Shown: one piece after another, positions 5,242-48,903 of the stretch | Position numbering within the stretch: position 1 is the stretch's first letter | How the letters are laid out: each line of letters begins with the position of its first letter | DNA from: Pelagihabitans pacificus | Lineage (GTDB): Bacteria > Bacteroidota > Bacteroidia > Flavobacteriales > Flavobacteriaceae | Direction: 5' to 3' | Assembly: GCF_009371985.2 (NCBI RefSeq) | Contig: NZ_VIKU02000002.1 | Location: forward strand, 620,001 to 684,000 | Length of the DNA: 64,000 bases | The notes under the pieces: generated by a model | Databases searched by the model: none | Seen by the model: the letters and a program-made list of their open reading frames with translations, nothing else | What the model was told of the DNA's origin: nothing | Program-made: the position numbers and the translations under genes

Positions 5242-5284
5242 CTAAGGTATTCCCCATTAGGCAACAAAAAAATGACCAAGGTCA
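5242..5284 (-). promoter_or_regulatory. TGAYNNNNRTCA box + N23 + -7 element (operon 5218 downward)
   Basis: The palindrome TGACCAAGGTCA at 5273-5284 is followed on the minus strand after exactly 23 nt by TACCTTAG at 5242-5249 (one mismatch to TANNTTTG). Predicted leader about 18 nt. Divergent from the box at 5306. Confidence 0.8.
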
Positions 5285-5305
5285 TGCGGTCGTCAGTTAA
5301 ATGAC

Positions 5306-5348
5306 TGACTCAAATCATAGGGATCTCAAGTGTACCGGGCTAGCTTTA
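5306..5348 (+). promoter_or_regulatory. TGAYNNNNRTCA box + N23 + -7 element (lipoprotein 5384)
   Basis: TGACTCAAATCA at 5306-5317, then exactly 23 nt, then TAGCTTTA at 5341-5348 (one mismatch to TANNTTTG). The centre lies 33 bp from that of the divergent box at 5273. Confidence 0.78.
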
Positions 5349-5383
5349 TACTACAAAAAAGGTGCACCTAAATTTTGGAAATA

Positions 5384-6016
5384 ATGAAAAAAATAACGCT
5401 GATCCTAGGAATTATATTCATGACGTCCTGTTCCTCTACACGATTCGTGGATAGTTGGAAAAACGAAGAAATCGTTGCCTTTAGGCCCAAAAAATTATTG
5501 GTTATCGGAATGACCGATAATCTTACCGCCCGTAAAATATTCGAGGAGGAGCTCAAAAAGGAATTTACAAAACGCGGTATCAATGCCCACGAAAGTACAA
5601 CGGTATTGGAGGAGTCGTTTACCGATGCCCAAAGAAGCGAGCGGGAGATAGAAATGATGAAAGAAAAACTCGTCGATGAAGGTTTTGACGCAGTCGCTAT
5701 TACAGCGGTCGTCGGCGTGGATGATAAAAGGAATTACCGTTCAGACTATTACACTTTTGGTTATGACTGGTACCGTTTCGGGCGCTATTATTATCGATTT
5801 CAGCGCGTGTATTACACGCCCGGGTATTATAACGATTACAAAGTGTACCATGTTGAGACCTCCATTTACAATATCGAGGAAGATACAGAGAAATCATTGG
5901 TCTGGGTAGGTACCCTGAACATAGTGGACCCATACAGTATTACCGCTACCGTAAACGACTATGTAGCTCGCATAACAAAACAGCTGGAACGCGAAGGGAT
6001 TATTGACCCACTATAA
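5384..6016 (+). CDS. Uncharacterised lipoprotein, paralogue of the 21034-21690 product
   Basis: 210 residues from ATG 5384; the frame could begin at TTG 5375, but ATG gives a standard lipoprotein signal with the lipobox FMTSC. After the cysteine it reads SSTRFVDSWKN, then KKLLVIGMTDN, EEELKKEF and GFDAVAITAVVG; a tyrosine-rich stretch (about 123-152) precedes VYHVETSIYNIE. The second window protein at 21034 shares VD-WKN, LLV-GMT, LKKEF, GFDA/DFDA and HVETS/HAETS blocks, so they are paralogues. Function unknown. Monocistronic between its own promoter (5306-5348) and the terminator at 6024. Confidence 0.8.
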   Translation: MKKITLILGIIFMTSCSSTRFVDSWKNEEIVAFRPKKLLVIGMTDNLTARKIFEEELKKEFTKRGINAHESTTVLEESFTDAQRSEREIEMMKEKLVDEGFDAVAITAVVGVDDKRNYRSDYYTFGYDWYRFGRYYYRFQRVYYTPGYYNDYKVYHVETSIYNIEEDTEKSLVWVGTLNIVDPYSITATVNDYVARITKQLEREGIIDPL

Positions 6017-6023
6017 TTTTCGC

Positions 6024-6073
6024 GCATAACAAAGAGGCCTCTAAAAAGTCTTGTGGAGGCCTCTTTGTTATGC
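6024..6073. terminator. Bidirectional hairpin terminator
   Basis: An 18-bp perfect stem GCATAACAAAGAGGCCTC with its complement at the other end and a 14-nt loop. It lies between the convergent genes ending at 6016 and 6082 and most likely terminates both. Confidence 0.85.
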
Positions 6074-6081
6074 AAAAAGAT

Positions 6082-6534: not shown

Positions 6535-6590
6535 AATTTCCAGGTTTTAGGGTGAGTGCTAAAGGTTACATTTTAGAATGGAAAAGGAAA

Positions 6591-6633
6591 TGATATATGT
6601 CATTTTATCCCTACCTGTACCCCCCTACTTTTG
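6591..6633 (+). promoter_or_regulatory. TGAYNNNNRTCA box + N23 + -7 element (hpf-usp)
   Basis: TGATATATGTCA at 6591-6602, then exactly 23 nt, then a perfect TACTTTTG at 6626-6633. Leader to ATG 6658 about 19 nt. Confidence 0.85.
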
Positions 6634-6657
6634 AATAGAATCTTAAACCCATAAAAA

Positions 6658-6969
6658 ATGACCATCAACATTCAATATGTTCAAATGCCGACCAGTGAAT
6701 CGCTTAACGGAATCGTAACCCGCAATTTGAAGAAGTTGGGCCATAAATATCAGTTCGTTATCCGTGCGGATGTCTTTTTTAAATTGGAAAACGACCCCCG
6801 TGGAAAAGGCAATATTTGTGAAATACAGCTTAGTGCCCCAGGCCCACGGCTATTCGCAAAATCGGACGAAAATAACTTTGAAAAAGCGGCCGCGGCCACT
6901 ATTGCGGATTTGGAACGACAATTGAAAAAGCGCAAGGGAAAATTCAATGAACACCGTAAAAGCCTCTAG
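6658..6969 (+). CDS. Ribosome hibernation promoting factor, HPF/RaiA family (short form)
   Basis: 103 residues. The fold is recognisable from the opening MTINIQYVQMPTSESL, the central strand ICEIQLSAPGPRLFAKS and the helix FEKAAAATIADLERQLKKRKGK, which is the basic rRNA-contacting helix of the HPF/YfiA family. Members bind the 30S decoding region and put ribosomes into an inactive state during starvation. The short form lacks the C-terminal dimerisation domain of long HPF. The USP gene downstream starts directly after it (ATG 6971). The promoter carries a perfect regulon box. Confidence 0.85.
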   Translation: MTINIQYVQMPTSESLNGIVTRNLKKLGHKYQFVIRADVFFKLENDPRGKGNICEIQLSAPGPRLFAKSDENNFEKAAAATIADLERQLKKRKGKFNEHRKSL

Positions 6970-6970
6970 G

Positions 6971-7792: not shown

Positions 7793-7823
7793 TCTGCCGA
7801 GGTACTTCGATACGGACAATTGA

Positions 7824-8522: not shown

Positions 8523-8532
8523 ACAAATTCGA

Positions 8533-9174
8533 TTAAGGCGCGACCATCGCAACCCCGGAAGAGGTGCCTATTCGGGAAACACCCATTTTAATATATTCTC
8601 TGGCGGTTTTGGCATCTTTAATGCCACCGGAAGCCTTGATCTTAATTCGGTTCCCGACAATTTCGTGCATGTATGCGACATCCTCCAAAGTAGCTCCCCC
8701 TGTACCAAAACCCGTAGAGGTCTTCACAAAATCAGCCCCTGCGGCAATGGCCGCTTCACAGGCCCATTTGATTTCTTCCTTTGTTAGGTAACAGGTTTCC
8801 AGAATGACTTTCAGGATTTTCTGTCCGATGGTCTTTTTGATTTCCGCAATCTCATCTTGGACGGTGGTCATCTGTCTTGCCCTCAACCAACCGATATTGA
8901 GTACCATATCAATTTCGTCGGCGCCATTTTGTACATATTCCGAAGCCTCGAATACTTTAACAGGGGTCGAGGTGGCACCCAACGGAAAACCGATAACAGC
9001 TGCCACTTTTACCTTACTACCTTCCAAAAGTCTTTTTGCCAACGAAACATGGCAACCATTGACACAGACGGCATAAAATCGATGCTGCTTAGCTGTCAGG
9101 CATAATTCCTTTATTTCCGAGTCCGTGGCATCGGCTTTTAAAAGGGTATGATCGATGTAGTTTTCCAATCTCAT
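8533..9174 (-). CDS. deoC: Deoxyribose-phosphate aldolase
   Basis: 213 residues. It shows the DeoC TIM-barrel signatures IDHTLLKADAT, CVNGCHV, VIGFPLGA, EIDMVLNIG, LKVILETCYL and the Schiff-base lysine in DFVKTSTGFGTGGAT, then KASGGIKD. It splits 2-deoxyribose-5-phosphate into glyceraldehyde-3-phosphate and acetaldehyde. The start overlaps the end of the TerB-like gene by 4 bp. Together with deoD it is under the regulon box at 9600-9642, pointing to nucleoside breakdown under the inducing condition. Confidence 0.95.
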   Translation of the reverse strand: MRLENYIDHTLLKADATDSEIKELCLTAKQHRFYAVCVNGCHVSLAKRLLEGSKVKVAAVIGFPLGATSTPVKVFEASEYVQNGADEIDMVLNIGWLRARQMTTVQDEIAEIKKTIGQKILKVILETCYLTKEEIKWACEAAIAAGADFVKTSTGFGTGGATLEDVAYMHEIVGNRIKIKASGGIKDAKTAREYIKMGVSRIGTSSGVAMVAP

Positions 9175-9575
9175 TGGTCCAATAAAAGGCCGAGTTTGCC
9201 CAAAAGTACCAATTCGGACTTGTTTTTACCAGAAAAGGAGGCCGCGATCGAATGGGCCGTATCCAAAATCAATACTTTGATATACGGTGTGAATCGTCGC
9301 TGGTGATCCTTGTAAAACTCCTGAAATTCCTCGAAACACTCATACGCGTTCTTTTCATATTCCAGAAGCCAATCGAAAACAGCTTCTATCTGAAACGCGG
9401 CGTCCTCACCATATTCGTCCTCTACCTCATCAACATCCAACCAGTACTTTCGAATGAAGGTTCGTAACTTATCGATTTCCTTGGTATGGATACTCTTATC
9501 CGCCATCGCCACGGCATAAAAAAGTTTACCGAGGTTTTCGTAGAATTCTTTTCCGATGATTTCCGTATTTGCCAT
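9171..9575 (-). CDS. TerB-like helical protein
   Basis: 134 residues from ATG 9575; the longer frame to 9680 runs through the promoter and cannot be right. The sequence is all helical and has the TerB-like core FYAVAMADKSIHTKEIDKL, in which acidic residues may coordinate metal, followed by an acidic segment VDEVEDEYGED. TerB-fold proteins occur in stress and tellurite-resistance settings; the exact role is unknown. First gene of a terB-like, deoC, deoD operon with 4-bp overlap to deoC. Confidence 0.75.
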   Translation of the reverse strand: MANTEIIGKEFYENLGKLFYAVAMADKSIHTKEIDKLRTFIRKYWLDVDEVEDEYGEDAAFQIEAVFDWLLEYEKNAYECFEEFQEFYKDHQRRFTPYIKVLILDTAHSIAASFSGKNKSELVLLGKLGLLLDQ

Positions 9576-9599
9576 TATTCGGTGGTTCTGATTCGATTT

Positions 9600-9642
9600 C
9601 AAAGTTAGGGGCAAAATCGTATTATGGATATGACAAATGTCA
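9600..9642 (-). promoter_or_regulatory. TGAYNNNNRTCA box + N23 + -7 element (terB-deoC-deoD)
   Basis: TGACATTTGTCA (minus reading; plus 9631-9642), exactly 23 nt, then a perfect TAACTTTG (plus 9600-9607). This fixes the start of the downstream gene at 9575. The same box lies about 30 bp before the histidine kinase start at 9666. Confidence 0.85.
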
Positions 9643-9665
9643 GTTAGAAAGGCTAAATTTGAGAC

Positions 9666-11564
9666 ATGCAGGCCTTCCAAAAGAATAGCAACATTTTCAA
9701 TCTACTTTCCGAGGGAGTATCCGAGGGTATTCTGGTGGTCAACGAAAAACAACAGATCGTCGCCACCAACTCTTCAGCAGAGCGAATGTTCGGTTATCAA
9801 AAGGAAGAGATAGAGGGCCAATTCCTGGATCTACTGATTCCCTCTAGATACCAGCCTGTCCACAAAAAGTATGTAGACGGCTTTATTGCCAAAAGCGAGA
9901 AACGCCCCATGGGCCACGACCGGCCTCTCTGGGGGGTGCGAAAAAACGGAGAGGAGTTCCCATTGGAGGCGGGTCTGAACCCGTTTAATTTGTATGGGAC
10001 CACCTACGTTATGGCATTGGTCATCGACATATCGGAACGTAAATCGATCGAGAAGGAGCTTACCATCAAAAGTGAGGCCCTCAAATCCTCCATCAACGGC
10101 ATTACGATTACCGATGCGTTGCAGGAAGAAAGACCCGTCATTTATGCCAATGCCGCCTTTGAGCGGCTCACGGGCTATTCCAACGAGGAGATTGTCGGGC
10201 ACAATCTGCGTTTTTTACAAGGTGATGATAGAAACCAGCCGGGAGTTTTGGAAATGCAAAAAGCGATCAATGAGGGAAGAAGTTGCCAGGTAGAAATAAG
10301 GAATTATCGAAAGGATGGCACCCTGTTCTGGAACGAGATTTCCATTACTCCCATTAAAGATGAGCAAGGAACCACCACACACTTTATCGGCATTCAGGAT
10401 GATATAACGAGACGAAAGAAAATTGAAGAGGAACGTATTTACTGGGCCAAAATCTTCAACGAAGCCCAGAACGAAATCTTCGTATTCGACGCGAATACCC
10501 TTCGATTCATTAACGTCAACCAAGGTGCCTTGGGAAATATGGGGTATACCTTGGAGGAATTTAAGAATCTGACCCCGGTCGATATAAAACCCGAATTTAA
10601 CGAAGCGCAGTTCAGGGCGGTACTGGAACCCCTGGTACAAAAAAACGAGGAGAAAATCGAGTTTGAAACCGTGCATCTGCGGAAAGATGGCAGTACTTAC
10701 CCGGTGGAAGTGCATTTGCAAATGTCGGCCCTCGAGGAAAATGAAGTGTTTCTGGCCATCATCCTTGATATTACCGAACGTAAGAACTACACCGAAAAGT
10801 TGGAAAGAACGGTCGAAGAACGCACCAAACAACTTACGGAGGCCTTGGCTGCGGAAAGAGAGCTCAACGAGTTGAAGACCCGATTTCTATCGCTGGTCTC
10901 ACATGAATTCAAGACCCCCCTAAGTAGCATATTGACGTCTACTACCCTTTTGGGAAAATACACAGAGGCCGAACAACAAAACAAACGGGAAAAACATATC
11001 GATACCATTCAAAACAAAGTACGCTATTTGGATACTATCCTTAATGATTTTTTATCTTTAGAACGGCTAGAGACGGGCAAGGTCAACTATAACATAGATA
11101 CATTTCCTTTGAGCAAAGTGGTCAACGAAGTGGTATACGACGCCAACATGTTGCTGAAGGCGGGACAAAAAATACAGTATCCGAAAGATATCGACGATCT
11201 CCAAATCGTGTTCGAGGAAAAAATCCTGGAGTTGGCATTATCCAATCTCGTGCATAATGCCATAAAATACTCACCAGAGCATACGACCATTGAAATAAAA
11301 GTCGTACAAATAGAAGATACCCTAGTATTAAAAATCATTGATGAAGGAGTCGGTATTCCCGAAGAAGACCAAAAATACATTTTCAATCGTTATTTCCGGG
11401 CCAAAAACGCCCTCTTAAACCAGGGAACCGGCATCGGTTTGAATATTGCCAAACAACATCTTGAAAATTTAGGGGCTTCCCTAAACTTCAAGAGCACCGA
11501 AAACAAAGGCTCTACCTTTACCATTCGGATACCGATGGAAACTGAAAAAACCATGGACAGATGA
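9666..11564 (+). CDS. Sensor histidine kinase with three PAS domains, the second LOV-like without the cysteine
   Basis: 632 residues, soluble. PAS1 about 10-125; PAS2 about 130-250; PAS3 about 262-372; a coiled linker; HisKA with phospho-acceptor His413 in LVSHEFKTPLSS; HATPase_c with N box NLVHNAIKYSP, DEGVGIPEED and GTGIGLNIAKQHLE. PAS2 reads like a flavin-binding LOV domain (GHNLRFLQGDD, NYRKDGTLFWNE, FIGIQDDIT) but position 181 is Leu where photoactive LOV domains have Cys. A TAAATTTG at 9654-9661 ends 4 nt before the ATG, so the transcript may be nearly leaderless. The stop overlaps the response regulator start (ATGA), so the two form one two-component system, cytoplasmic and probably redox or energy sensing. 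Confidence 0.92.
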   Translation: MQAFQKNSNIFNLLSEGVSEGILVVNEKQQIVATNSSAERMFGYQKEEIEGQFLDLLIPSRYQPVHKKYVDGFIAKSEKRPMGHDRPLWGVRKNGEEFPLEAGLNPFNLYGTTYVMALVIDISERKSIEKELTIKSEALKSSINGITITDALQEERPVIYANAAFERLTGYSNEEIVGHNLRFLQGDDRNQPGVLEMQKAINEGRSCQVEIRNYRKDGTLFWNEISITPIKDEQGTTTHFIGIQDDITRRKKIEEERIYWAKIFNEAQNEIFVFDANTLRFINVNQGALGNMGYTLEEFKNLTPVDIKPEFNEAQFRAVLEPLVQKNEEKIEFETVHLRKDGSTYPVEVHLQMSALEENEVFLAIILDITERKNYTEKLERTVEERTKQLTEALAAERELNELKTRFLSLVSHEFKTPLSSILTSTTLLGKYTEAEQQNKREKHIDTIQNKVRYLDTILNDFLSLERLETGKVNYNIDTFPLSKVVNEVVYDANMLLKAGQKIQYPKDIDDLQIVFEEKILELALSNLVHNAIKYSPEHTTIEIKVVQIEDTLVLKIIDEGVGIPEEDQKYIFNRYFRAKNALLNQGTGIGLNIAKQHLENLGASLNFKSTENKGSTFTIRIPMETEKTMDR

Positions 11565-12613: not shown

Positions 12614-12630
12614 AATAAGATTATAGCTGC

Positions 12631-12673
12631 TGATAAATATCATACTTTGGCCCTCATCAACTTTTTATTTTTG
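12631..12673 (+). promoter_or_regulatory. TGAYNNNNRTCA box + N23 + -7 element (usp 12691)
   Basis: TGATAAATATCA at 12631-12642, exactly 23 nt, then a perfect TATTTTTG at 12666-12673. Leader about 12 nt. Starts 18 bp after the response regulator stop. Confidence 0.85.
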
Positions 12674-12690
12674 CCGACACGACTAACCAA

Positions 12691-13552: not shown

Positions 13553-13595
13553 TGACCAATATCATAGTTTTTGATATGCCCTGCCTCTATTTTTG
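13553..13595 (+). promoter_or_regulatory. TGAYNNNNRTCA box + N23 + -7 element (usp 13621-16192)
   Basis: TGACCAATATCA at 13553-13564, exactly 23 nt, then a perfect TATTTTTG at 13588-13595. Its box is identical to the one at 16277-16288, as expected for duplicated units. Confidence 0.85.
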
Positions 13596-13620
13596 GATTT
13601 CCACCTAAATGTTTGGGCCC

Positions 13621-16276: not shown

Positions 16277-16319
16277 TGACCAATATCATAGGTTTCAGTT
16301 TGGTTCCCGGCTACATTTA
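16277..16319 (+). promoter_or_regulatory. TGAYNNNNRTCA box + N23 + -7 element (usp 16344 to beta-CASP)
   Basis: TGACCAATATCA at 16277-16288, exactly 23 nt, then TACATTTA at 16312-16319 (one mismatch). Leader about 19 nt. Confidence 0.82.
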
Positions 16320-20471: not shown

Positions 20472-20514
20472 TGATCGTTATCATTTTAAATTTTCCATCG
20501 AAAGAGTAAATTGG
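20472..20514 (+). promoter_or_regulatory. TGAYNNNNRTCA box + N23 + -7 element (20557-21690)
   Basis: TGATCGTTATCA at 20472-20483, exactly 23 nt, then TAAATTGG at 20507-20514 (one mismatch to TANNTTTG). Confidence 0.78.
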
Positions 20515-21944: not shown

Positions 21945-21987
21945 TGATCGACATCATTTTGGCATCCGTCATAGTACGCTACTTTTA
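21945..21987 (+). promoter_or_regulatory. TGAYNNNNRTCA box + N23 + -7 element (22011-23307)
   Basis: TGATCGACATCA at 21945-21956, exactly 23 nt, then TACTTTTA at 21980-21987 (one mismatch). Confidence 0.82.
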
Positions 21988-26248: not shown

Positions 26249-26767
26249 TTACAGGAATTCCCCATTTTCACTCATTTTAACCCTAAGGATTTGGTCCCCA
26301 TTCTCTAATTTCAATTTGTATTTTTTGTTAACGCCCTTATGTTCGTGGTAATCGACTAGATATACGTCTTTTGTAATCGTCCATTCAGGAAAACGGTCAA
26401 GAACTGCCATCTGGACAGCCTTGGGCAAGTTGACGTTATTAAATCGTTCCACGGTTCGCAACAATTTGCCGTCCTTATCATAGGCCGCGAGAATAGTGCC
26501 CTCGGGGATGTAAAAGTTTACTTCATAAAAGTCATATTCGTCTTCATAATAATCGGAATTTTTCACATCAAATTCGGCTACTTTGCGCTCCAACATTTTT
26601 ACCGGTATGGATGCCGCTTGTTCAGTTTTCACATTTTGCAAATACTTATAGTTCGTAGCATAAACTGTCACTTCCGTAAGCTTTTCCGTTTCGGTCGTTT
26701 CAGTGATTTGTGAATAAATTGGGAGGGTCAGCCCTATGGCAATTAGACCTAACAGTACTTTTCTCAT
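26249..26767 (-). CDS. Secreted PepSY-like protein, uncharacterised
   Basis: 172 residues from ATG 26767 (MRKVLLGLIAIGLTLPIYSQ, a signal peptide); the longer frame to 26872 crosses the promoter. The mature part has AVLDRFPEWTITKDVYLVDYHEHKG and YKLKLENGDQILRVK, the pattern of the PepSY-like/BLIP-like fold common in Bacteroidetes periplasmic proteins. Ligand unknown. Upstream of dodecin in the same unit. Confidence 0.75.
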   Translation of the reverse strand: MRKVLLGLIAIGLTLPIYSQITETTETEKLTEVTVYATNYKYLQNVKTEQAASIPVKMLERKVAEFDVKNSDYYEDEYDFYEVNFYIPEGTILAAYDKDGKLLRTVERFNNVNLPKAVQMAVLDRFPEWTITKDVYLVDYHEHKGVNKKYKLKLENGDQILRVKMSENGEFL

Positions 26768-26828: not shown

Positions 26829-26871
26829 CAAAAGTAGGTAGTACTGCTTCTCCCTGCAATGATATAAGTCA
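26829..26871 (-). promoter_or_regulatory. TGAYNNNNRTCA box + N23 + -7 element (26767, dodecin)
   Basis: Minus reading TGACTTATATCA (26860-26871), exactly 23 nt, then a perfect TACTTTTG (26829-26836). It sets the start of the downstream gene at 26767. Confidence 0.85.
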
Positions 26872-26919: not shown

Positions 26920-28092
26920 TTAATACCGAAAAAGTGCGTTCATAACCCGCTCTTTTATCGGCATTTCGGTAGACGGTAAAATATAGACCGCACCGCCCTG
27001 TCTATAGGTTTCCAAAGCAGTTAAATTCGTTAATGAGGCGTTATTCGTATCTTTTTTGGTATCTAGGGCCACAACATCGTTTTCCCTATCATAAATACCA
27101 TACACTTCGGTTCCTTTTTGGATAAAAAGAGTATCGACTTTTCCGTTCAAGGCTGCTTTGATGATACTATCGATTTCGTAGGAGGTCTTGGGGGTGTGGT
27201 ACGACTCGGTAAACTTGGTCCTTTTTTCTTCCTGTATTTGCTTGAAATACGGTTCTATCAAATCCCACGAAGCTTGATGCAAGCTTGTTTTTCCCTTGAA
27301 TTCGGGGTCTCCTTCCAAGTTCTTATCAAAAAGGGCAGGGTAGGTACTTGCCTCTTTGTAGACATCGTATACTTCATCAACACAAGCCAAAACCAAGGGT
27401 ATATTCTGACCGGAAACGACTTTTTTTACACCCTTGTCAATTTCCCTAAAAAAGGTGATGAGCTCTTTTTTACGATCGTCCTTCCCCTCGCCATGACCAT
27501 GAAAAGAACCTGCGCTATGAACATTTTGACCACTTCTGAATTGAAACATTTTGGGGGCGTAGTCATAGCCTACGGCCTCTTCCAATCGGTGTGGGGCAAA
27601 ATCCTCGATGTTCTGGTCTTCAAAACCGTATCTAGACGCCTTATAGAGTCGCACATAGTCCTGACTCAGTTCCAAAACATAGTATTGGCCATCACCGTGG
27701 TATAAAGGAAGTAAGGGCAAGAGGTAAAAATGACCGGCCACATAGGTTTGTACCTCAAAGGGAATAGGTATTTGAAAATAACGCATTCCTTCCTCCGGAT
27801 CCAAAAAAATGACCAGTCCGTCCGAGGGATTGCGCCAGAGGGTAACTTGATGTAGCAGTTGTTCGATCGGTTGAAGATATGTGGTTATCTGGTCCTCGTG
27901 CATTTGATGTTCGGCCAATGCCCTTTTTACTTCATTGATGCATTGTTTAAGCCTGGCCTGGGCCAGATGTCGATTCTGTTCCTTCCCCTGTTTGTCCATG
28001 GGCAGGTAGATCGACACACAATGAAGGGCGCGCCTTTTCATAAGGGATTCAAAAGTCTCTTTTGGTAACGGATGTATTTCAGAAGTATTCAT
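26920..28092 (-). CDS. Bacterial archaeo-eukaryotic release-factor-like protein (baeRF7-type)
   Basis: 390 residues. The middle domain (about 140-300) and the C-terminal domain (about 315-385: IDSIIKAALNGKVDTLFIQKG, then YRQGGAVYIL) have the layout of eRF1/Pelota domains 2 and 3 as described for the baeRF families; the N-terminal domain reads SIYLPMDKQGKEQNRHLAQARLKQ. Such proteins are proposed to act on stalled or hibernating ribosomes. The exact subfamily (baeRF7) is from memory. Together with HPF and RtcB it makes a translation and RNA-rescue theme. Start ATG 28092, leader about 12 nt. Confidence 0.8.
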   Translation of the reverse strand: MNTSEIHPLPKETFESLMKRRALHCVSIYLPMDKQGKEQNRHLAQARLKQCINEVKRALAEHQMHEDQITTYLQPIEQLLHQVTLWRNPSDGLVIFLDPEEGMRYFQIPIPFEVQTYVAGHFYLLPLLPLYHGDGQYYVLELSQDYVRLYKASRYGFEDQNIEDFAPHRLEEAVGYDYAPKMFQFRSGQNVHSAGSFHGHGEGKDDRKKELITFFREIDKGVKKVVSGQNIPLVLACVDEVYDVYKEASTYPALFDKNLEGDPEFKGKTSLHQASWDLIEPYFKQIQEEKRTKFTESYHTPKTSYEIDSIIKAALNGKVDTLFIQKGTEVYGIYDRENDVVALDTKKDTNNASLTNLTALETYRQGGAVYILPSTEMPIKERVMNALFRY

Positions 28093-28109: not shown

Positions 28110-28152
28110 CCAAAATACCCATTCAACAAATAATCCAAAATGATTTGAATCA
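28110..28152 (-). promoter_or_regulatory. TGAYNNNNRTCA box + N23 + -7 element (baeRF7-like)
   Basis: Minus reading TGATTCAAATCA (28141-28152), exactly 23 nt, then TATTTTGG (28110-28117; one mismatch). Confidence 0.78.
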
Positions 28153-28820: not shown

Positions 28821-28863
28821 TGATGTACATCATTTCATAGCACGGCCCCCAGGGTTTCCTTTG
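28821..28863 (+). promoter_or_regulatory. TGAYNNNNRTCA box + N23 + -7 element (OmpA-HtrA)
   Basis: TGATGTACATCA, a perfect palindrome, at 28821-28832, exactly 23 nt, then TTCCTTTG at 28856-28863 (one mismatch). Confidence 0.8.
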
Positions 28864-30841: not shown

Positions 30842-30884
30842 TGATCTAGGTCATTTTGTAGTTGAATACAACCCGTTATTTTAG
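30842..30884 (+). promoter_or_regulatory. TGAYNNNNRTCA box + N23 + -7 element with no protein gene behind it
   Basis: TGATCTAGGTCA at 30842-30853, exactly 23 nt, then TATTTTAG at 30877-30884 (one mismatch). It starts 16 bp after the HtrA-like gene and drives a stretch that has no ATG before a terminator. Confidence 0.8.
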
Positions 30885-32880: not shown

Positions 32881-33573
32881 TTATACGAGTTTAAAACGTT
32901 CCTTTACTTTGAAGAAAATACGTTCGATGACCTCCTCGGGAACCCCCAATATTTCGGAAATCTCATGCGTATCCTGATTACCGAATACAAACAATTCGAT
33001 GACCTTCTTACTTCTTTCCGGTATGGTATTGTATAAAACCCCCAAAAGCTGTCTCTTTTCATCCGAGAGTAGCGAAGCTTCGTGAAGATCAAATTTTGCA
33101 ATCAGTTGCTTTTCCAACAAGTCATCCAAATAAATTTTTGAGGACCAACCCTGTTTCTGGCGGTACGAAATATCGTCCAGTTCGTCATAAAGTATGGGAT
33201 CCCCGTCGCCATCGGTGGTAAAATCTTCGTTCAACAACTTCAATTCCCCTTTCAACATTGCATGGGTATTGACCTCATCGGGTATTTCCTCTGCCTCTTT
33301 GCCCTCAATTTTTTTAAGGGCCTTCTGAAACAGGGAGCGTCTCAATTTTACGATATCGGTTTCCGATGAAAAATCATTGAATACTTCCAAGTAGACTTCA
33401 TCGAGCATTTCATCGGCATCGTAGAATCCCCTATCGAGCATTCCCTGCTGCTCTGCTGCCTTTAGGCTTCCGGTCATGAATTGTTTTAATTCGGGCACAA
33501 AGGTTTCCAGTTTTTTATAAAACTGTTGAAAGTCGTTTTCTTGTTTGTGCTTAAATAATTCTTTGGTAGGCAT
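32881..33573 (-). CDS. Uncharacterised protein with C-terminal sigma-region-4-like HTH
   Basis: 230 residues from ATG 33573 (MPTKELFKHKQENDF); an ATG at 33618 gives extra residues that look like noise. Acidic overall. The last 60 residues resemble sigma70 region 4: ERSKKVIELFVFGNQDTHEISEILGVPEEVIERIFFKVKERF. The N-terminal part (LKQFMTGSLKAAE...YDADEMLDEVYLEVFNDF) could be a diverged region 2. A remote ECF-like sigma factor or a regulator derived from one is possible. Regulon box upstream. Confidence 0.65.
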   Translation of the reverse strand: MPTKELFKHKQENDFQQFYKKLETFVPELKQFMTGSLKAAEQQGMLDRGFYDADEMLDEVYLEVFNDFSSETDIVKLRRSLFQKALKKIEGKEAEEIPDEVNTHAMLKGELKLLNEDFTTDGDGDPILYDELDDISYRQKQGWSSKIYLDDLLEKQLIAKFDLHEASLLSDEKRQLLGVLYNTIPERSKKVIELFVFGNQDTHEISEILGVPEEVIERIFFKVKERFKLV

Positions 33574-33631: not shown

Positions 33632-33674
33632 TAAAATTATGGATATATCGATTTACTATATATGATATTGATCA
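33632..33674 (-). promoter_or_regulatory. TGAYNNNNRTCA box + N23 + -7 element (33573, permease)
   Basis: Minus reading TGATCAATATCA (33663-33674), exactly 23 nt, then TAATTTTA (33632-33639; one mismatch). Confidence 0.78.
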
Positions 33675-34000: not shown

Positions 34001-34043
34001 TGACATACATCATTGAACACCGTCGCTGTGGACGCTATATTTG
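34001..34043 (+). promoter_or_regulatory. TGAYNNNNRTCA box + N23 + -7 element (OmpA protein 34173)
   Basis: TGACATACATCA at 34001-34012, exactly 23 nt, then a perfect TATATTTG at 34036-34043. Leader is unusually long, about 124 nt, and holds a 16-codon frame (34071-34121). Confidence 0.85.
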
Positions 34044-35496: not shown

Positions 35497-36066
35497 TTAA
35501 TTTTTGTTCTTTTTGGGCCGGTACTTGAACTTTTGTCCCCCAAGGGAGGCTTCGTACATTAGGCCCGCCTTGGACATCGTAAATACGGCAACGCCATTTT
35601 GGTAGGCTACATCGGCCGAGGCACCTACCGTTACCGCCACTGCGGAGACCTGTCCTGCAAATTTGAGTTTGCCCCGTTGAAACCTTTTCATGGCCTGTTC
35701 ATCCTCAAAAAATATGAGCTCGCTATACGCCTGTCCGCCAAACTGGAAACCCACGGTGATCTGGGTCATGGTGACCTTTCCAATGGGTTCGCCCTTCTGG
35801 AAAACAACACCTGAGCCATGGGCACCGCCTACGCCGGCGGCTCCTTTTCCTACCCCTGGAAAAACGGCGTAACCGTATGCTTCCTGAAAGAATAGCTCCA
35901 AACCGGGGTCTTTTTCCTTAAACATTTCTATCGTCTCCCTTGCTTTTGTTTCAAGTTCGGGATCCCATCCGCCTATCTGTCCCTGTGCAAAAATACCCGT
36001 GTAGGTCAGAAATACGGTTAGACTTAAAAACAATAAACTATTTGTTCTTGCCATTCTTGTTTTCAT
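35497..36066 (-). CDS. SYLF/Ysc84 domain lipid-binding protein, secreted
   Basis: 189 residues with signal peptide (to about IFAQG). The SYLF domain has AYGYAVFPGVGKGAAGVGGAHG, then TVGFQFGGQAYSELIFF and AAVAVTVGASADVAYQNGVAVFTMSKAGLMYEASLGGQKF-like end blocks (GAS-DV, SKAGLMYE). The family binds phosphoinositides or other lipids; in bacteria the ligand is unknown. Start ATG 36066, or 36054. Regulon box upstream. Confidence 0.88.
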   Translation of the reverse strand: MKTRMARTNSLLFLSLTVFLTYTGIFAQGQIGGWDPELETKARETIEMFKEKDPGLELFFQEAYGYAVFPGVGKGAAGVGGAHGSGVVFQKGEPIGKVTMTQITVGFQFGGQAYSELIFFEDEQAMKRFQRGKLKFAGQVSAVAVTVGASADVAYQNGVAVFTMSKAGLMYEASLGGQKFKYRPKKNKN

Positions 36067-36145: not shown

Positions 36146-36188
36146 ACAATGTACCGACCTTTTATCGGATAGTCAATGATCAAAATCA
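36146..36188 (-). promoter_or_regulatory. TGAYNNNNRTCA box + N23 + weak -7 element (SYLF)
   Basis: Minus reading TGATTTTGATCA (36177-36188), exactly 23 nt, then TACATTGT (36146-36153; two mismatches to TANNTTTG, the weakest of the set). Confidence 0.68.
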
Positions 36189-40110: not shown

Positions 40111-40620
40111 TTAGGGTTGGGAACCTATTGTTACGGTGGCATTGCCGTCACCCACCATGACCATCACGTTCAATTTCCCTTTTTCGGCAGCAAGATGACC
40201 CCCTGTACCTGCCACCGTGGTATAGTTTATTTTGAAGCCTTTGGCCTCCAGTTCTTTCTTGTAGTTCTGCAGTGCCGTTTGTGGCACTTCCTCAAAAATG
40301 ACGACCCAATTTTTGGTGTCGTCCATTTCTTGAGTGCTAACGCTCATCACTTTGCCTTCCGCAAACTCCGGCACCTCTTCGGGGGCCTCATCGGGCCAAC
40401 TGTGTACCGTAGCATCGGTAGTGAAGGTTCCCTCCTCTGTCTCGATCGTTACTTTTTCATTATCGATGTCTACTTTGGCTTTATCACCTATCGACTTTTC
40501 TATCATCTTTTCGGTAGTCTTTTCCGCAGCCTTTTTGCAGGATTCAAATATAGCTGTGGCACTAACCAAGAAAAGTAACATCATTATATGCTTTAAATTA
40601 AACTTGTTGGAATGTCTCAT
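40111..40620 (-). CDS. Uncharacterised lipoprotein
   Basis: 169 residues from ATG 40620 (MRHSNKFNLKHIMMLLFL); the upper end of the frame (40716) runs through the promoter. Lipobox FESCK. Mature part begins KKAAEKTTEKMIEKS and then a beta-rich region (VTIETEEGTFTTDATV; EGKVMSVSTQEM; NVMVMVGDGNATVTIG). Family not recognised. First gene of a unit that probably continues VOC, HEAT, AlkD-like, SRPBCC, broken membrane protein, CapA. Confidence 0.78.
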   Translation of the reverse strand: MRHSNKFNLKHIMMLLFLVSATAIFESCKKAAEKTTEKMIEKSIGDKAKVDIDNEKVTIETEEGTFTTDATVHSWPDEAPEEVPEFAEGKVMSVSTQEMDDTKNWVVIFEEVPQTALQNYKKELEAKGFKINYTTVAGTGGHLAAEKGKLNVMVMVGDGNATVTIGSQP

Positions 40621-40685: not shown

Positions 40686-40728
40686 CAAAAGTAGGATGGC
40701 GATGAAATCTCGGCAATGATGTAGATCA
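40686..40728 (-). promoter_or_regulatory. TGAYNNNNRTCA box + N23 + -7 element (operon 40620 to 36218)
   Basis: Minus reading TGATCTACATCA (40717-40728), exactly 23 nt, then a perfect TACTTTTG (40686-40693). Only 11 bp separate it from the divergent box at 40740. Confidence 0.85.
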
Positions 40729-40739: not shown

Positions 40740-40782
40740 TGACCTTAATCATTTCAGTACAAAGTCATTTTATGCAATTTTG
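40740..40782 (+). promoter_or_regulatory. TGAYNNNNRTCA box + N23 + -7 element (prs-like)
   Basis: TGACCTTAATCA at 40740-40751, exactly 23 nt, then CAATTTTG at 40775-40782 (one mismatch). Back to back with the box at 40717-40728; centres 23 bp apart. Confidence 0.78.
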
Positions 40783-40816: not shown

Positions 40817-41782
40817 ATGGCCGCTACTAAAAACCTGATTTTTGCATTGGATTCGAGCAAGGGCTTTGGCTCGACGGTCGCAGAAGTGGTGGGTATGACC
40901 TTAAGCGCACATGAGGAACGGGATTTTCCCGGGGGGGAACACAAAACACGATCCCTGGTCGAGGTACTGGGCAAGCATGCCTTTATTATCCATAGTCTTT
41001 ATAGAGAACCTGGTCGAACGGTCAATGACAAACTTTGCAGACTGTTGTTCTTTATCGGTTCATTAAAAGATGCGGGTGCCTCCGAAGTAACCGTAATCGC
41101 TCCTTACCTGTGTTATTCGCGAAAAGATAAAAAGACCAAGCCTTATGACCCGATTACCACCAACTATGTTGCCCGACTATTCGAGGCTATGGGGGCGGAC
41201 CGATTTGTGACCTTGGATGTACACAACGTGCAGGCCTTTGAAAACGCTTTTCGCATTCCCACCATACATCTGGAAGCCAAAGCTGCTATGGCATCCTATT
41301 TCGTCACATCTATAAAGAATCGGGAAACCGTCGTTTTATCCCCGGATATCGGGGGAGTCAAAAGGGCGATGGGGTTTGCGGAAGTACTCGGCAATAAATT
41401 GAAAAAATCGATTTCAGTAGCGGTCATGCACAAAACCCGGAGCGAGGGGGTCGTTGGGGGTACAGAACAAATCTTTGGGAACGTTCACGGGAAAATGGTT
41501 ATCATTCTAGACGACCTTATTAGTTCGGGCACCACCCTATTGCGAGCGGCAAAATCCTGTAAAAAGGCAGGGGCGAACAAGGTATATGCCGCTGCTACCC
41601 ACGGTGTCTTTTCGAACGGGGCCAATACCTCGTTAATAGATCCAGCTTTCGATAAGATTATTATTACCAACAGCATTCCGCCCCTTTGCCTGGAACAGGA
41701 AATTGTGGAACAGAAGGTCAATATCCTCGATGTGGCGCCTTTAATCGGAAATCTTATCGGTGAGCTCATGGAGAATTCCTAG
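40817..41782 (+). CDS. Ribose-phosphate pyrophosphokinase (PRPP synthetase) family
   Basis: 321 residues, full length. Motifs: FPGGEHKTRSL, YLCYSRKDKKT (ATP binding), the DVHN block in place of DLHAxQ, LSPDIGGVKRA, and the PRPP/ribose-5-phosphate loop VIILDDLISSGTTLL. It makes PRPP from ribose-5-phosphate and ATP. The diverged DVHN motif and the stress promoter suggest a second, condition-specific copy apart from the housekeeping prs. It would recycle pentose phosphate from nucleosides and feed the phosphoribosyltransferase at 22672. Confidence 0.87.
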   Translation: MAATKNLIFALDSSKGFGSTVAEVVGMTLSAHEERDFPGGEHKTRSLVEVLGKHAFIIHSLYREPGRTVNDKLCRLLFFIGSLKDAGASEVTVIAPYLCYSRKDKKTKPYDPITTNYVARLFEAMGADRFVTLDVHNVQAFENAFRIPTIHLEAKAAMASYFVTSIKNRETVVLSPDIGGVKRAMGFAEVLGNKLKKSISVAVMHKTRSEGVVGGTEQIFGNVHGKMVIILDDLISSGTTLLRAAKSCKKAGANKVYAAATHGVFSNGANTSLIDPAFDKIIITNSIPPLCLEQEIVEQKVNILDVAPLIGNLIGELMENS

Positions 41783-41827
41783 GGAATGTCAATCTTTGAC
41801 AAAGGTTACCTACCCTTTCGACAATTG

Positions 41828-42703
41828 CTATAATGCTGCTTTAAAATAAAATAATTGATGGTTGCCTTCACGAAAACTCAAAAGAGGCACCTTGCCATAG
41901 TCTTCCATTTTTTTAACCAAATCTTGGTGGAACAATTTTCGGAACACCCCGACTTTTTCCCTTTCCAACATTACCACTAAATCGGCTTCGATGTCTTCCA
42001 GATAGGTTCTGAGCGATTCAAAAATATTTTCGGAGAATACGAGTTCAAATTCCAAAGCGTCATAAGTGACCTTTTCCTCCAATTCATCCTTGAACCATTC
42101 CAATTGCATCTCTCCTTTATACTCTTTTTTGGTCGAGATATGCACTACCCTAATTTCAGCATTGAACGGTTCGGCGATTTCGGCCAATTTTCGAATGGCA
42201 TAGACATCTTCCTCCTCAAAATCGGAGGCGTATACAATGGTTTTTATAGAAGTGTACTCGGTATCTGCCGGAATTGCCAAGACGGGGCAAGGCGCCTTGT
42301 CAATAAGCTGCTTGGTCGTGCTTCCGAGTAAAAGTTCCCGTACGGCACTCTCTCCTTTAACCCCAACGACAATCAAATAGGCATGCCAATCGTTGGCTTT
42401 TGAAATAATTCCCGTCACCGCCGATTTTTCCGTTACCGGCTCGCATTGTAGTTTCGGGGATGTACACTTTTCGCCCAAATGCTCTTTACAGAACTTCTCC
42501 AATCGTAAACGATGGCTTTTCATGGACGCTTCCTCGGAATGTGGAAAAGGCTCATCAAGCCCCTCCAAACCAACAATGACCGGGTAGCCAAAGGCATGGG
42601 TAACAACCAAACGGGCGTCCATCTGCATTGATAAACCGTAAGCGTATTTTAAGGCGGCTACAGAGTTATCGGAATAATCGGTGGCATATAAAATCGTTTT
42701 CAT
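41828..42703 (-). CDS. Universal stress protein, tandem UspA domains
   Basis: 291 residues, start MKTILYATDYSDNSVAALKY. N-terminal domain with the ATP motif GVKGESAVRELLLGSTT; second domain from SIKTIVYASDF, without the loop. Own box promoter. Convergent with prs. It differs in sequence from the 12691-17180 array and is not a recent copy of it. Confidence 0.9.
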   Translation of the reverse strand: MKTILYATDYSDNSVAALKYAYGLSMQMDARLVVTHAFGYPVIVGLEGLDEPFPHSEEASMKSHRLRLEKFCKEHLGEKCTSPKLQCEPVTEKSAVTGIISKANDWHAYLIVVGVKGESAVRELLLGSTTKQLIDKAPCPVLAIPADTEYTSIKTIVYASDFEEEDVYAIRKLAEIAEPFNAEIRVVHISTKKEYKGEMQLEWFKDELEEKVTYDALEFELVFSENIFESLRTYLEDIEADLVVMLEREKVGVFRKLFHQDLVKKMEDYGKVPLLSFREGNHQLFYFKAAL

Positions 42704-42729
42704 ATTTCGCTTTTTTAGCTGTCAGAACC

Positions 42730-42772
42730 TAAAGTTAAGTACTCATACCCACCCATTAAATGACCAAAGTCA
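42730..42772 (-). promoter_or_regulatory. TGAYNNNNRTCA box + N23 + -7 element (usp 41828)
   Basis: Minus reading TGACTTTGGTCA (42761-42772), exactly 23 nt, then TAACTTTA (42730-42737; one mismatch). Confidence 0.8.
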
Positions 42773-44380: not shown

Positions 44381-44396
44381 AATCAATATTAGGGAT

Positions 44397-46061: not shown

Positions 46062-46194
46062 AGCATAAAAATAACATCCTTTATAATCATCATCATTACC
46101 TTTATGTAAATTAACAACGTGATTTCATTTGGTGGGTATAAAAATAGAAGTTTCTACTTATTATACGAACGTGTAACTGGTTTTGTGCGTCTTT

Positions 46195-48033
46195 TCAGAA
46201 AGGCCATACATACGGTACAACCAGCATCGTAAGTACAAATAGTAGGAGCAACAACGGACCGCCTACTTTCACGTAGTCAAGGAACTTGTAACCACCGGCA
46301 CCCATGACCATGGCATTGGTCGTGGTGCCTACGGGGGTCAAAAAAGCGGTCGACGCGCTGATAGCCACTACCATCATAAAAGGTTTTGGGGATACACCCA
46401 GGGATACTGCCGCCATGAACGCAATGGGCGCCATCAGCACCGCCGTCGCCGAATTGTTGATGGTTTGGCTAAAGACCATGGTCACTAAAAAAATCCCTCC
46501 CAATAACATCGTAGGGTGAATGGTGCCCAAATAATCGACCAATCCGTTGGAAACCATTTCGGCCGTACCCGTTTTCTGTAGGGCCAACCCCATAGGAATC
46601 ATCGCTGCAATCATCACTACGCTTGTCCAACTGATACCCTTGTAGGCTTTTGTGATAGGCACACAACCTGTTAGCATCATAATTCCACCACAGATCAGTG
46701 CGGCTATAGCCCCCGGAAAAACATCGAAAACCAAAAGCAATATCATAAGTACGAGCGTTCCCAAGGCGATATAGGATCGGGGAGTCAGCTCGTCTACATC
46801 CTTAGCCATGGCATCCGGACTACCGGAAATGACCAAATTCTCATAGACCCCCTTCAGCGATTCTATGTTCTCCCAAGAGCCCCTGATCACGAAGGCATCA
46901 CCCGCCTTTATTTTGATATTCTTATCCGCCAAGGGTTTACCATCACGCGATGCTCCCAATAACTGGATACCCGATTTCTTAAGGTATCGCCCCAAGGGCA
47001 ACGTACGCCCCACAAAAAAGGAGGTGGGGGTAATGATCATTTCAACCATTCCGATTTCTTGGTTGATGAGCTCCTTTTTCAATTCGGAAGGCTCAAAGGC
47101 TTGTGGAATCAGACCCAGTTTCAATGCGATGATCATTTCGTCCACGTCCTCTGCCGTTCCTTTTACCGTTATAATATCGTGGTAGCGCATTTCGGTGTCA
47201 GGTTCGGGAAGTTCTACAAAGGGGGCCGTACCTTTTAACACATTAGGGTGTCTGCGGCGAAGACGCATCACGGATATGTTGTGTTTTTCCTCAAACTGCC
47301 AATCCCCTATCTTGGTACCGATCAAGGGTGACATCGATCGAATTCGCAAACGGTACATATTGTCCCCGATGCTATAGTTGGAAATCCAGCGATGAACCTC
47401 GGAATCAATACTCACTGGGCGGTTCTTGGTCTTATGATTGGGCAACAGTTTGTACCCTATGTACCTAAAATAAAAAATACAGATAACCAAAAGGGGAAGA
47501 CCGATCAAGGAGAACTCAAAAAACGAAAAACCATTTATTCCTTGTTCCACCAACACATTACTAACGATGATGTTGGGAGGCGTACCGGTCAAAGTTAGCA
47601 AACCGCCTGTGTTGGAGCCAAAAGCTACCGGCATCAGGAGTTTGGAAGGCAGTGTCCCGGCCTTCCATGCCGCAGATACGGTCACCGGTAAAAGGGCCGC
47701 CACTGTACCGGTATTGCTTACAAAGCCGGAGAGTACACCGGATCCAAAAGTGACAAGAATCAATAATTTAGGGATGCTTTTGCCTGCCCAAAAAACAAAT
47801 TTTTGACCTGCCAAGGCCGTCCATCCCGTTCTGGCAAGTCCTTCTCCCACGATAAAAAGCGCGGCGATCATCAGCACCGTAGGATTGCTGAAACCACTCA
47901 AGGTTTCCGATAGATCCAGGATTCCTGTGAGATAAAGCGCCAACATCGACATGAGGGCGACCACATCGGGCGGGAACTTTCCCCAAATGAACAAGGCGAT
48001 GGTAATGGCCAAAATGACCAATAAAATAATCAT
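46195..48033 (-). CDS. SLC13/DASS family anion transporter with two TrkA_C domains
   Basis: 612 residues. N- and C-terminal membrane halves of the SLC13 fold (SNTGTVAALLPV, GSNTGGLLTLTGTPPNIIVSN; later TINNSATAVLMAPI and STAFLTPVGTTTNAMVMG, the paired SNT/TP motifs) flank two cytoplasmic TrkA_C/RCK domains (about 215-300 and 310-390). Transports a dicarboxylate or sulfate with Na+; the TrkA_C domains sense a small ligand. It follows the USP gene by 20 bp in one operon under the box at 48861-48903. Confidence 0.9.
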   Translation of the reverse strand: MIILLVILAITIALFIWGKFPPDVVALMSMLALYLTGILDLSETLSGFSNPTVLMIAALFIVGEGLARTGWTALAGQKFVFWAGKSIPKLLILVTFGSGVLSGFVSNTGTVAALLPVTVSAAWKAGTLPSKLLMPVAFGSNTGGLLTLTGTPPNIIVSNVLVEQGINGFSFFEFSLIGLPLLVICIFYFRYIGYKLLPNHKTKNRPVSIDSEVHRWISNYSIGDNMYRLRIRSMSPLIGTKIGDWQFEEKHNISVMRLRRRHPNVLKGTAPFVELPEPDTEMRYHDIITVKGTAEDVDEMIIALKLGLIPQAFEPSELKKELINQEIGMVEMIITPTSFFVGRTLPLGRYLKKSGIQLLGASRDGKPLADKNIKIKAGDAFVIRGSWENIESLKGVYENLVISGSPDAMAKDVDELTPRSYIALGTLVLMILLLVFDVFPGAIAALICGGIMMLTGCVPITKAYKGISWTSVVMIAAMIPMGLALQKTGTAEMVSNGLVDYLGTIHPTMLLGGIFLVTMVFSQTINNSATAVLMAPIAFMAAVSLGVSPKPFMMVVAISASTAFLTPVGTTTNAMVMGAGGYKFLDYVKVGGPLLLLLFVLTMLVVPYVWPF

Positions 48034-48053
48034 TCAAAGAGAATAAAAGAGGA

Positions 48054-48833
48054 TTAATTGATCGCCAGCAGTGGAACCTTGGAATGAAGTGTTAACATCT
48101 GGGTCAATTGCCCCTCGGACGGTTCACTGCGTTTGGTGTGATTTCGGGGCAGGATCGCTATGACATCGATCTCTTTTTGGGTGGCATACCCCAAAATACC
48201 CTCAACCACATCGGGGTTTTCGATAAAGGTATGTTCCGAATAAAAACTCTCCAAATAGTATTGAATCGCATTTTCGTTCTTCTCGTCGGTCTCGGAGTAC
48301 CCATAAACATCGGGTTTATTTTCTATTGTGAGCACGTGTACCTTCGCGTTGAACCTTCTTGCCACGTCCAAGAGCGTGCCGAGCACTTTGGTATCGTCGA
48401 TTTCCTCCCTACCCAAGACCAAGGAAATATTCTTGATCTGGAATTCCCCTAAACCTTGAGGCACTACCAAAACGGGGCAATCTGCCTCAGCGACCAATTT
48501 GGAAGTGTTGGTAGAAGCGGAATCTTCTTCCCCGGAAATTCCATGGGTACCCATGATAATCAGATCCACCTGCTCCCTTTTTTGAATATCCATCAGGGAT
48601 TCGGTCAACGAGCCACTGCCCGACACAAATTCTATTGGATGCTTTAGAATGCGTTTATAGTTCTCTTCAATACTATTAAAAGCGTCTGGTGCCACTTCAC
48701 TTCCATTTGCAATGTGGGCCACTATAATTTTAAGGTTTTCGTCTCTTCCTACGTATCCTACAGCATATTCGAGGGCTCCTTGTGAAACTTCCGAAAAATT
48801 GAAAGGAACAAGTATGGTCGCTATTTTATCCAT
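48054..48833 (-). CDS. Universal stress protein, tandem UspA domains, divergent
   Basis: 259 residues, start MDKIATILVPFNFSEVSQGALEY. N-terminal domain with GTHGISGEEDSASTNTS, a slightly altered nucleotide loop; the second domain closes HSKVPLLAIN. It precedes the SLC13 transporter gene by 20 bp, and USP-transporter pairing suggests control of transport. Confidence 0.88.
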   Translation of the reverse strand: MDKIATILVPFNFSEVSQGALEYAVGYVGRDENLKIIVAHIANGSEVAPDAFNSIEENYKRILKHPIEFVSGSGSLTESLMDIQKREQVDLIIMGTHGISGEEDSASTNTSKLVAEADCPVLVVPQGLGEFQIKNISLVLGREEIDDTKVLGTLLDVARRFNAKVHVLTIENKPDVYGYSETDEKNENAIQYYLESFYSEHTFIENPDVVEGILGYATQKEIDVIAILPRNHTKRSEPSEGQLTQMLTLHSKVPLLAIN

Positions 48834-48860
48834 TATGCAAGTCTGTGTTGTTTGTTTCCG

Positions 48861-48903
48861 TAAAAATAGGGGGCGAATTTAAATGAAAACATGACGGTTG
48901 TCA
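48861..48903 (-). promoter_or_regulatory. TGAYNNNNRTCA box + N23 + -7 element (usp-transporter)
   Basis: Minus reading TGACAACCGTCA (48892-48903), exactly 23 nt, then TATTTTTA (48861-48868; one mismatch). Last box of the island. Confidence 0.8.

Follow-up and report, generated by a model that had tools for sequence, protein, structure and literature searches.

Which regulator, responding to which signal, accounts for the many copies of one short palindrome, TGAYNNNNRTCA (hereafter the box), in a 64,000-nt stretch of the Pelagihabitans pacificus genome? The stretch, referred to as the window, covers positions 620,001 to 684,000 of contig NZ_VIKU02000002.1 (C12:620001-684000 in a 4.56-Mb genome of 22 contigs). 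The boxes probably belong to sigma-A promoters subject to class II activation by CRP/FNR-type proteins at -41.5, together forming a low-oxygen regulon of the Flavobacteriaceae in which two kinds of regulator use one box. What the sequences show directly is how the cis elements are arranged, that this arrangement is conserved and that it correlates with the presence of the regulators, along with the domain architecture and conserved residues of the proteins; from these we infer DNA binding, the heme and Fe-S cofactors, oxygen as the signal and the sign of feedback.

Within the window the box is matched 27 times, against a mean of 4.10 and a largest count of 11 in 100 dinucleotide shuffles, and this mean agrees with the roughly four chance palindromes per 64 kb estimated in an initial annotation of the same DNA. 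At 20 of the 27 boxes an 8-mer resembling TANNTTTG, the Bacteroidetes -7 element, starts exactly 23 nt past the box on one strand (an element had to carry 4 or more of the 6 fixed bases at this gap); 7 of these elements are perfect, 12 have one mismatch and one, at box 36177, has two. The coordinates, strands and mismatch counts of all 20, as first annotated, were confirmed by recount. The whole pattern with at most one mismatch is present 19 times versus 0.14 expected, the largest shuffle holding one, and the fixed spacing is thus beyond chance, as had been claimed. At boxes 6591 and 34001 a second strand reading, and at box 42761 one further strand reading, scores 4 at gap 23, the other strand scoring 5 or 6. 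Boxes without the element number seven (20246, 20841, 25863, 34469, 35189, 35757 and 47751), about the chance number. Past 48.9 kb a pattern search of the 64-kb window found no box, consistent with the earlier remark that none precedes the genes after 49 kb.

The initial annotation took these sites for a stress regulon. A real regulon is supported; it extends across the genome, and its signal is better read as low oxygen than as general stress. Genome-wide there are 98 whole-pattern sites with at most one mismatch, 19 of them in the window, versus 3 matches to the reversed pattern. Forty-nine of the 98 lie in C12:517-669 kb, of which the window forms the right-hand third, and 15 in C1:23-57 kb, so that 64 sites occupy about 4% of the genome. 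These two clusters, together with the 0 to 5 sites in genomes of the same genus that have neither of the regulators described below, suggest gain or loss in blocks.

Base-level statistics were taken over 420 kb, comprising the window and 20 stretches picked for holding sites, with 79 sites in all. The resulting logo is MTGAYNNANRTCAT-N22-TANNTTTR, the box being preceded by A or C in 98% and followed by T in 95% of sites, with three more T-rich bases. In the excerpt of PMC9723704 the -7 box of Flavobacterium psychrophilum is placed at -12 to -5; the element in the logo fits the consensus given there for Bacteroidetes sigma-A promoters, and with the same placement the box spans -47 to -36, centred at -41.5. 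The FNR/FixK box TTGAYNNNNRTCAA, also centred at -41.5, matches in its inner 12 bases, its spacer and its position, and differs in its outer bases. The class II CRP/FNR-type geometry with this centre, proposed in the initial annotation, is supported by comparative evidence. Between the -7 box and the script-picked start codon the median distance is 33.5 nt (80 sites).

Conservation was followed in 80 loci of relatives (1.54 Mb), fetched by protein similarity to the response regulator encoded at 11561 and not by the box. Their genera include Maribacter, Arenibacter, Aquimarina, Flagellimonas, Dokdonia and Lacinutrix, related loci not being independent of each other; the closest orthologs of the regulator are those of an uncultured Flavobacteriaceae bacterium (85% identity) and a Maribacter metagenome-assembled genome (83%). 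Elements with at least 5 of the 6 fixed bases number 474 at gap 23, versus a mean of 12 and a highest count of 29 at the other gaps from 5 to 60. Perfect elements number 210 at gap 23 versus a mean of 1.4 elsewhere, with the next highest counts at gaps 24 (14) and 25 (7). At least one gap-23 element is present in all 80 loci, and six control palindromes with other spacers or letters give 0 to 5 elements at this gap. The scan of the genome and its relatives that had been suggested as a check therefore bears out the pattern, with 98 sites versus 3 and 474 elements versus 12. Past the regulator gene, 72 of 79 loci retain a site that starts 4 to 130 nt beyond its final codon, with varying inner bases. 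The signal at gaps 24 and 25 was considered as noise and this was rejected, because 20 of the 21 perfect sites concerned lie 1.2 to 1.6 kb before the regulator gene, at the start of the adjacent kinase gene.

The regulator at 11561 is a fusion of a receiver with a cNMP-binding domain (PF00027, E 6.1e-20) and HTH_Crp_2 (PF13545, E 8.6e-13), which places it in the CRP/FNR superfamily, and its C-terminal part matches CRP/FNR structures. All 80 relatives retain the receiver Asp and Lys, and 73 of 80 have the helix GIATESLIRTLS. The four FNR cluster cysteines were not found in the window protein, whose single Cys is in the receiver, nor was the receiver plus LuxR-type helix-turn-helix (HTH) of FixJ. 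The fusion or a 43%-identical paralog (E up to 1e-60) occurs in 66 of 149 genomes of the family.

In the genome of the window six HTH_Crp_2 matches exceed the cut-off. Three carry ATE[ST]xIR helices, namely the window fusion, a second fusion (C12:546.6 kb) and an FNR-like protein (C1:55 kb); the other three are two with SRVVVSR, lacking the Glu, and one with VREVISR. The helix form A-x-E-x-x-I-R is common to both regulator types. The second fusion adjoins a 957-aa PAS-containing open reading frame (ORF) at C12:547638-550511 that is probably its kinase. Judged by eye, this ORF too starts with a PAS of the FixL type in which the His and Arg positions are present.

In FNR proper there are four cluster cysteines, three of them N-terminal. 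All 21 sequences of the FNR-like protein share cysteines 9, 12, 58 and 111. Its alignment with Aliivibrio FNR extends from Cys9-x2-Cys12 to the cysteine at 111, and 9, 12 and 111 pair with cysteines there, leaving 58 without a counterpart; the third FNR cysteine thus seems, from the alignment, to be replaced by Cys58, and the protein is presumably an Fe-S oxygen sensor. Its best PDB match is Crp of Porphyromonas gingivalis (PG0396, 2gau; E 2.4e-24). A role for the regulator at 11561, which the initial annotation had singled out, is supported, but it is not the sole likely reader of the box, because the second fusion and the FNR-like protein share its helix type and because genomes with the FNR-like protein alone also carry sites. 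A distant CRP paralog (34-38% identity, E about 1e-37) was considered as a further reader and found unlikely: the four same-genus genomes that have it (G001, G003, G007 and G008) hold few sites, two of them none, one 2 and one 5, and it probably reads another motif.

The kinase gene lies directly upstream of the fusion in 76 of 80 relatives; of the remaining four, two are truncated by a contig end, and the kinase match is 136 nt off in one and at another place in the last. The best PDB match of the first PAS is the heme domain of Rhizobium meliloti FixL (1d06, E 1.5e-14), followed by DosP. His66 and Arg86 align with the FixL residues that we take to be the heme-proximal His and distal Arg, and the aligned His is present in 76 of 76 kinases and the Arg in 72 of 76. 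An H-box is present in 75 of 75 related kinases and no strongly hydrophobic, membrane-like stretch was found in any of these 75. At the level of sequence the kinase thus has the make-up of FixL, a FixL-type PAS with His and Arg followed by a histidine kinase. The second PAS of the window kinase contains a LOV-like motif, GHNLRFLQ, with Leu at the position of the Cys of photoactive LOV domains. A LOV-type sensor was considered for this kinase and dropped: among 75 related kinases only 7 carry such a motif, and in one of these the Cys is present.

Co-occurrence of sites and regulators was assessed in 149 genomes from 148 genera of the family by counting perfect sites, a fusion being a match to the window protein at E up to 1e-60 (either paralog) and an FNR-like protein a match to P0003 at E below 1e-50, with weaker matches, including a second paralog, scored as absent. 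Altogether 1174 perfect sites were found versus 21 reversed-pattern matches. Mean sites per genome are 14.3 with both regulators (n=36), 8.9 with the fusion only (n=30), 6.6 with the FNR-like protein only (n=54) and 1.2 with neither (n=29), and all 15 genomes with zero sites have neither. Per Mb, in genomes at least 95% complete, the values are 3.68, 2.78, 1.74 and 0.27, respectively. Within the genus of the window, genomes with both regulators hold 30, 23, 13 and 18 sites, one with the FNR-like protein only holds 4, and those with neither hold 0, 2, 2, 0 and 5, the last three being 81-87% complete. Phylum-wide, any site is found in 84 of 198 genomes, with 0 to 11 outside the family.

The genes downstream of the sites, named from sequence and Pfam domain, include in the genome of the window CcoNO, a CcoI-like P-type ATPase, a HemN-like radical SAM protein, PFOR, a second 2-oxoacid oxidoreductase, a ferredoxin, two PPDK/PEP-synthase-type enzymes, PfkB, HPF and Hsp20. 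To these come 10 universal stress proteins, as counted by local comparison, while 45 of 80 downstream ORFs matched no seed. F. psychrophilum responds to oxygen limitation with strong induction of cbb3 oxidase and also with upregulation of heme biosynthesis enzymes (excerpt of PMC9723704). Targets were also read in 3 of the 30 fusion-only genomes (26 of 29 sites) and 3 of the 54 FNR-like-only genomes (24 of 31 sites); a base-composition count on the same sets used 26 and 18 sites, six being too near the fetched end. A site precedes HemN in 3/3 and CcoNO in 2/3 of the former and both in 3/3 of the latter, and NadA and HPF are targets in both sets. With the same core targets carrying the site in fusion-only genomes, the fusion appears to run the core promoters where the FNR-like protein is missing; another reader is possible in some genomes.

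The kinase operon has a promoter of its own with a different register. Box 9631 is shared by two promoters: the kinase's TAAATTTG follows it at gap 11 and the element of the leftward gene at gap 23. The kinase ATG at 9666 coincides with the predicted +1, an apparently leaderless arrangement. A box with a -7 element (at least 5 of 6 bases) in range is found in 52 of 75 kinase promoters, counting that of the window (9631-9666) with those of loci L049-L128. The best gap is 10-12 in 25, 24-26 in 22, another value in 5 and 23 in none. In 36 of the 52 the operon begins TANNTTTG-N4-ATG, with the first in-frame ATG exactly 12 nt after TA, and in 46 it lies within one base of this distance. This spacing implies a conserved, putatively leaderless kinase mRNA and lends independent support to the -12 placement. 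Of 65 boxes lying upstream of kinases 47 are followed by G, versus 204 of 210 perfect gap-23 sites followed by T. At gap 11 the box would cover -35 to -24, which fits repression.

The preferred account, two kinds of regulator on one box in a low-oxygen regulon, can be laid out in putative steps. CRP/FNR-type dimers at the box centred at -41.5 would activate sigma-A promoters in class II manner. One reader would be the FNR-like protein with its four cysteines, a putative Fe-S oxygen sensor; for the other, the soluble FixL-like PAS kinase would phosphorylate the receiver-CRP/FNR fusion, in effect FixJ and FixK merged into one protein. As oxygen falls, the phosphorylated fusion would switch on cbb3 oxidase and HemN and, in lineages having them, also many universal stress and hibernation genes, and the box in the kinase promoter, at a non-activating distance, would feed back on the system. 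A fuller version, offered tentatively since we are about evenly divided on it, sees two interchangeable oxygen switches on one cis-code. The collapsed FixL-FixJ-FixK would share the promoters of the FNR-like protein and would have replaced it in many lineages, adding universal-stress genes; an activating register (23 nt, T after the box) and an autoregulatory register in the leaderless kinase promoter (10-12 or 24-26 nt, mostly G) would form a readable code; and the FNR-like protein would be a variant with a relocated third cluster cysteine.

Several points weigh against the preferred account. The His-containing PAS signature is also known from non-heme PAS domains. Many non-core targets have no evident oxygen link and many have no Pfam match. 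Three of the 29 genomes with neither regulator hold at least four sites (G079 with 9, G169 with 5 and G178 with 7), two of them being 82% and 73% complete. The co-occurrence carries no correction for phylogeny, and the genomes that have neither regulator include many small ones, yet the order per Mb is the same. Lastly, other CRP-family proteins that have Glu and Arg in the corresponding helix positions are encoded in 3 of 8 fusion-only genomes. This last point would favour a scheme in which the FNR-like protein is the sole true reader, the fusion binds elsewhere and genomes lacking the FNR-like protein rely on another CRP-family protein to read the box, as would the sites at HemN, CcoNO and CcoI in FNR-like-only genomes and, in the genome of the window, the single box common to the FNR-like gene and the CcoI gene. 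We regard this scheme as distinctly improbable. The fusion occurs without an FNR-like ortholog in 30 of the 149 genomes, which keep their mean of 8.9 sites and, in the three read, most sites at HemN and CcoNO; the site past the fusion gene is itself widely kept. In the 8 fusion-only genomes checked, where 26 of 34 HTH_Crp_2 matches were read and 7 of the 8 unread fall below the curated cut-off, the fusions alone among the matches read have the AxE[ST]xIR helix. The competing helices are AKESLVR in G161, RVETVIR in G035 and G073 and AREVITR in G073; in the other five genomes no other match read has both Glu and Arg.

A general stress or starvation regulon with a broad survival role, not driven by oxygen and with a kinase sensing redox, light or metabolites, would suit the many universal stress proteins, HPF, Hsp20 and envelope proteins among the targets and the extra PAS domains of the window kinase, one with the LOV-like motif without the photoactive Cys. 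Universal stress proteins follow 6 of 26 fusion-only sites versus 0 of 24 FNR-like-only sites (one-sided Fisher p 0.014, three genomes each), a suggestive tie of these targets to fusion-only genomes. Such a regulon is nevertheless unlikely, as the core common to both regulator classes, HemN and cbb3 oxidase, is oxygen-linked and the FixL-like PAS is the one present in all 76 aligned kinases. It is scarcely credible that the box is just part of a stronger sigma-A promoter with no dedicated regulator. The T-rich bases after the box do lie near the position of TTTG in the phylum's sigma-A promoters, but the G expected of a -33 TTTG is found at that offset in only 8% of the 79 sites. The box is also a palindrome with a fixed 4-nt spacer, for which the control palindromes offer no equal (0 to 5 versus 474). 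This plain promoter reading was rejected on the -33 column and on co-occurrence, sites being rare in genomes with neither regulator.

Most likely the system works like FNR/Anr and FixLJ-FixK, what is new being the collapsed FixL-FixJ-FixK pair and a modified FNR reading one cis-code. FNR sites are centred at -41.5, as here, and some usp genes are also under Anr. Further likenesses to FNR/Anr of Proteobacteria are the 4-nt-spaced palindrome with identical inner TGAY/RTCA (Anr box TTGATNNNNATCAA, with hemN among the core Anr targets; excerpt of PMC6588701), hemN and cbb3 oxidase as targets and an FNR-like regulator with four cysteines. Unlike FNR/Anr, the outer bases here are A/C and T (MTGAY/RTCAT), not TT/AA, the -7 element is TANNTTTG, one of the four cysteines (Cys58) is elsewhere, the box appears to have a second type of reader, one with no cysteine cluster, and the universal-stress set is large. 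With FixL-FixJ-FixK of rhizobia the system shares the FixL-like PAS kinase, the receiver, the FNR-type DNA-binding domain and cbb3 oxidase as a target (excerpt of PMC7888657); fixK2 is auto-repressed (excerpt of PMC9104804), and here too feedback on the system's own synthesis is proposed. In contrast to the rhizobial cascade, the fusion system is found in Flavobacteriaceae, and its receiver and CRP/FNR module are joined in a single protein that lacks a FixJ-type HTH, the intermediate transcription step being absent.

HcpR and DNR are likewise of the CRP/FNR family and share inner box letters (delta-proteobacterial HcpR box TTGACnnnnGTCAA, DNR box TTGATnnnnATCAA; excerpt of PMC1274295), but differ in outer bases, targets and sensors. 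P. gingivalis Crp, the best PDB match of the FNR-like protein, is of the same phylum; however, P. gingivalis is an anaerobe and the 2gau alignment starts past the two N-terminal cysteines. The title of PMC12040651 terms this Crp cAMP-independent, and in the excerpt of PMC8510549 Flavobacteriales CRP/FNR homologs are assigned to MalR-like carbon sensing. No published account of an oxygen regulon of the family or of such a receiver-CRP fusion was found among the listed results of full-text searches of the open literature, subscription papers being mostly outside the search. With its exact spacing the regulon can be predicted from sequence across many genera. This provides a starting point for work on many unknown genes and on universal stress proteins, and in a large environmental family it also offers a natural example of one regulator taking over from another while the cis-code stays fixed.

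Table 1. Predicted box-element sites, the kinase-operon promoter and the regulator genes. Positions are those of the window unless a contig is named.
Feature	Position	Strand	Context or content	Basis
box-N23-TACCTTAG	5242..5284	-	before WG-repeat protein gene ending at 4592	pattern + Pfam
box-N23-TAGCTTTA	5306..5348	+	before ORF, start about 5384, no Pfam family	
box-N23-TACTTTTG	6591..6633	+	before ribosome hibernation factor (S30AE/HPF) at 6658	pattern + Pfam
box-N23-TAACTTTG	9600..9642	-	before 9171-9575 (no Pfam match), then DeoC/LacD aldolase	
Kinase-operon promoter	9631..9661	+	box 9631-9642, 11-nt gap, TAAATTTG 9654-9661	
Soluble sensor histidine kinase, 632 aa	9666..11564	+	three PAS stretches, HisKA, HATPase	Pfam
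Response regulator, 350 aa	11561..12613	+	receiver, cNMP-binding (CRP-like), HTH_Crp_2; recognition helix GIATETLIRTLS	Pfam
box-N23-TATTTTTG	12631..12673	+	directly 3' of regulator gene; before universal stress protein at 12691	
box-N23-TATTTTTG	13553..13595	+	before universal stress proteins at 13609, 14484; third ORF at 15350	
box-N23-TACATTTA	16277..16319	+	before universal stress protein at 16344, then MscS-type protein	
box-N23-TAAATTGG	20472..20514	+	before ORF 20557, no Pfam match	
box-N23-TACTTTTA	21945..21987	+	before alpha/beta hydrolase at 22011	pattern + Pfam
box-N23-TACTTTTG	26829..26871	-	before ORF 26249-26767, no Pfam match	
box-N23-TATTTTGG	28110..28152	-	before baeRF-family protein at 26920-28092	
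box-N23-TTCCTTTG	28821..28863	+	before OmpA-family protein at 28898	
box-N23-TATTTTAG	30842..30884	+	target uncertain; no ORF longer than 47 codons starts within 260 nt	
box-N23-TAATTTTA	33632..33674	-	before ORF 32881-33573, no Pfam match	
box-N23-TATATTTG	34001..34043	+	before OmpA-family protein at 34173	
box-N23-TACATTGT	36146..36188	-	weakest, two mismatches; before Ysc84-domain protein at 35497-36066	
box-N23-TACTTTTG	40686..40728	-	before ORF 40111-40620, no Pfam match	
box-N23-CAATTTTG	40740..40782	+	before ribose-phosphate pyrophosphokinase at 40817	
box-N23-TAACTTTA	42730..42772	-	before universal stress protein at 41828-42703	
box-N23-TATTTTTA	48861..48903	-	before universal stress protein at 48054-48833	
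FNR-like protein	C1:54931-55632 (L022:1033-1734)		four cysteines	

The good site at 30842, with its one short ORF, could possibly mark a small protein or RNA gene.

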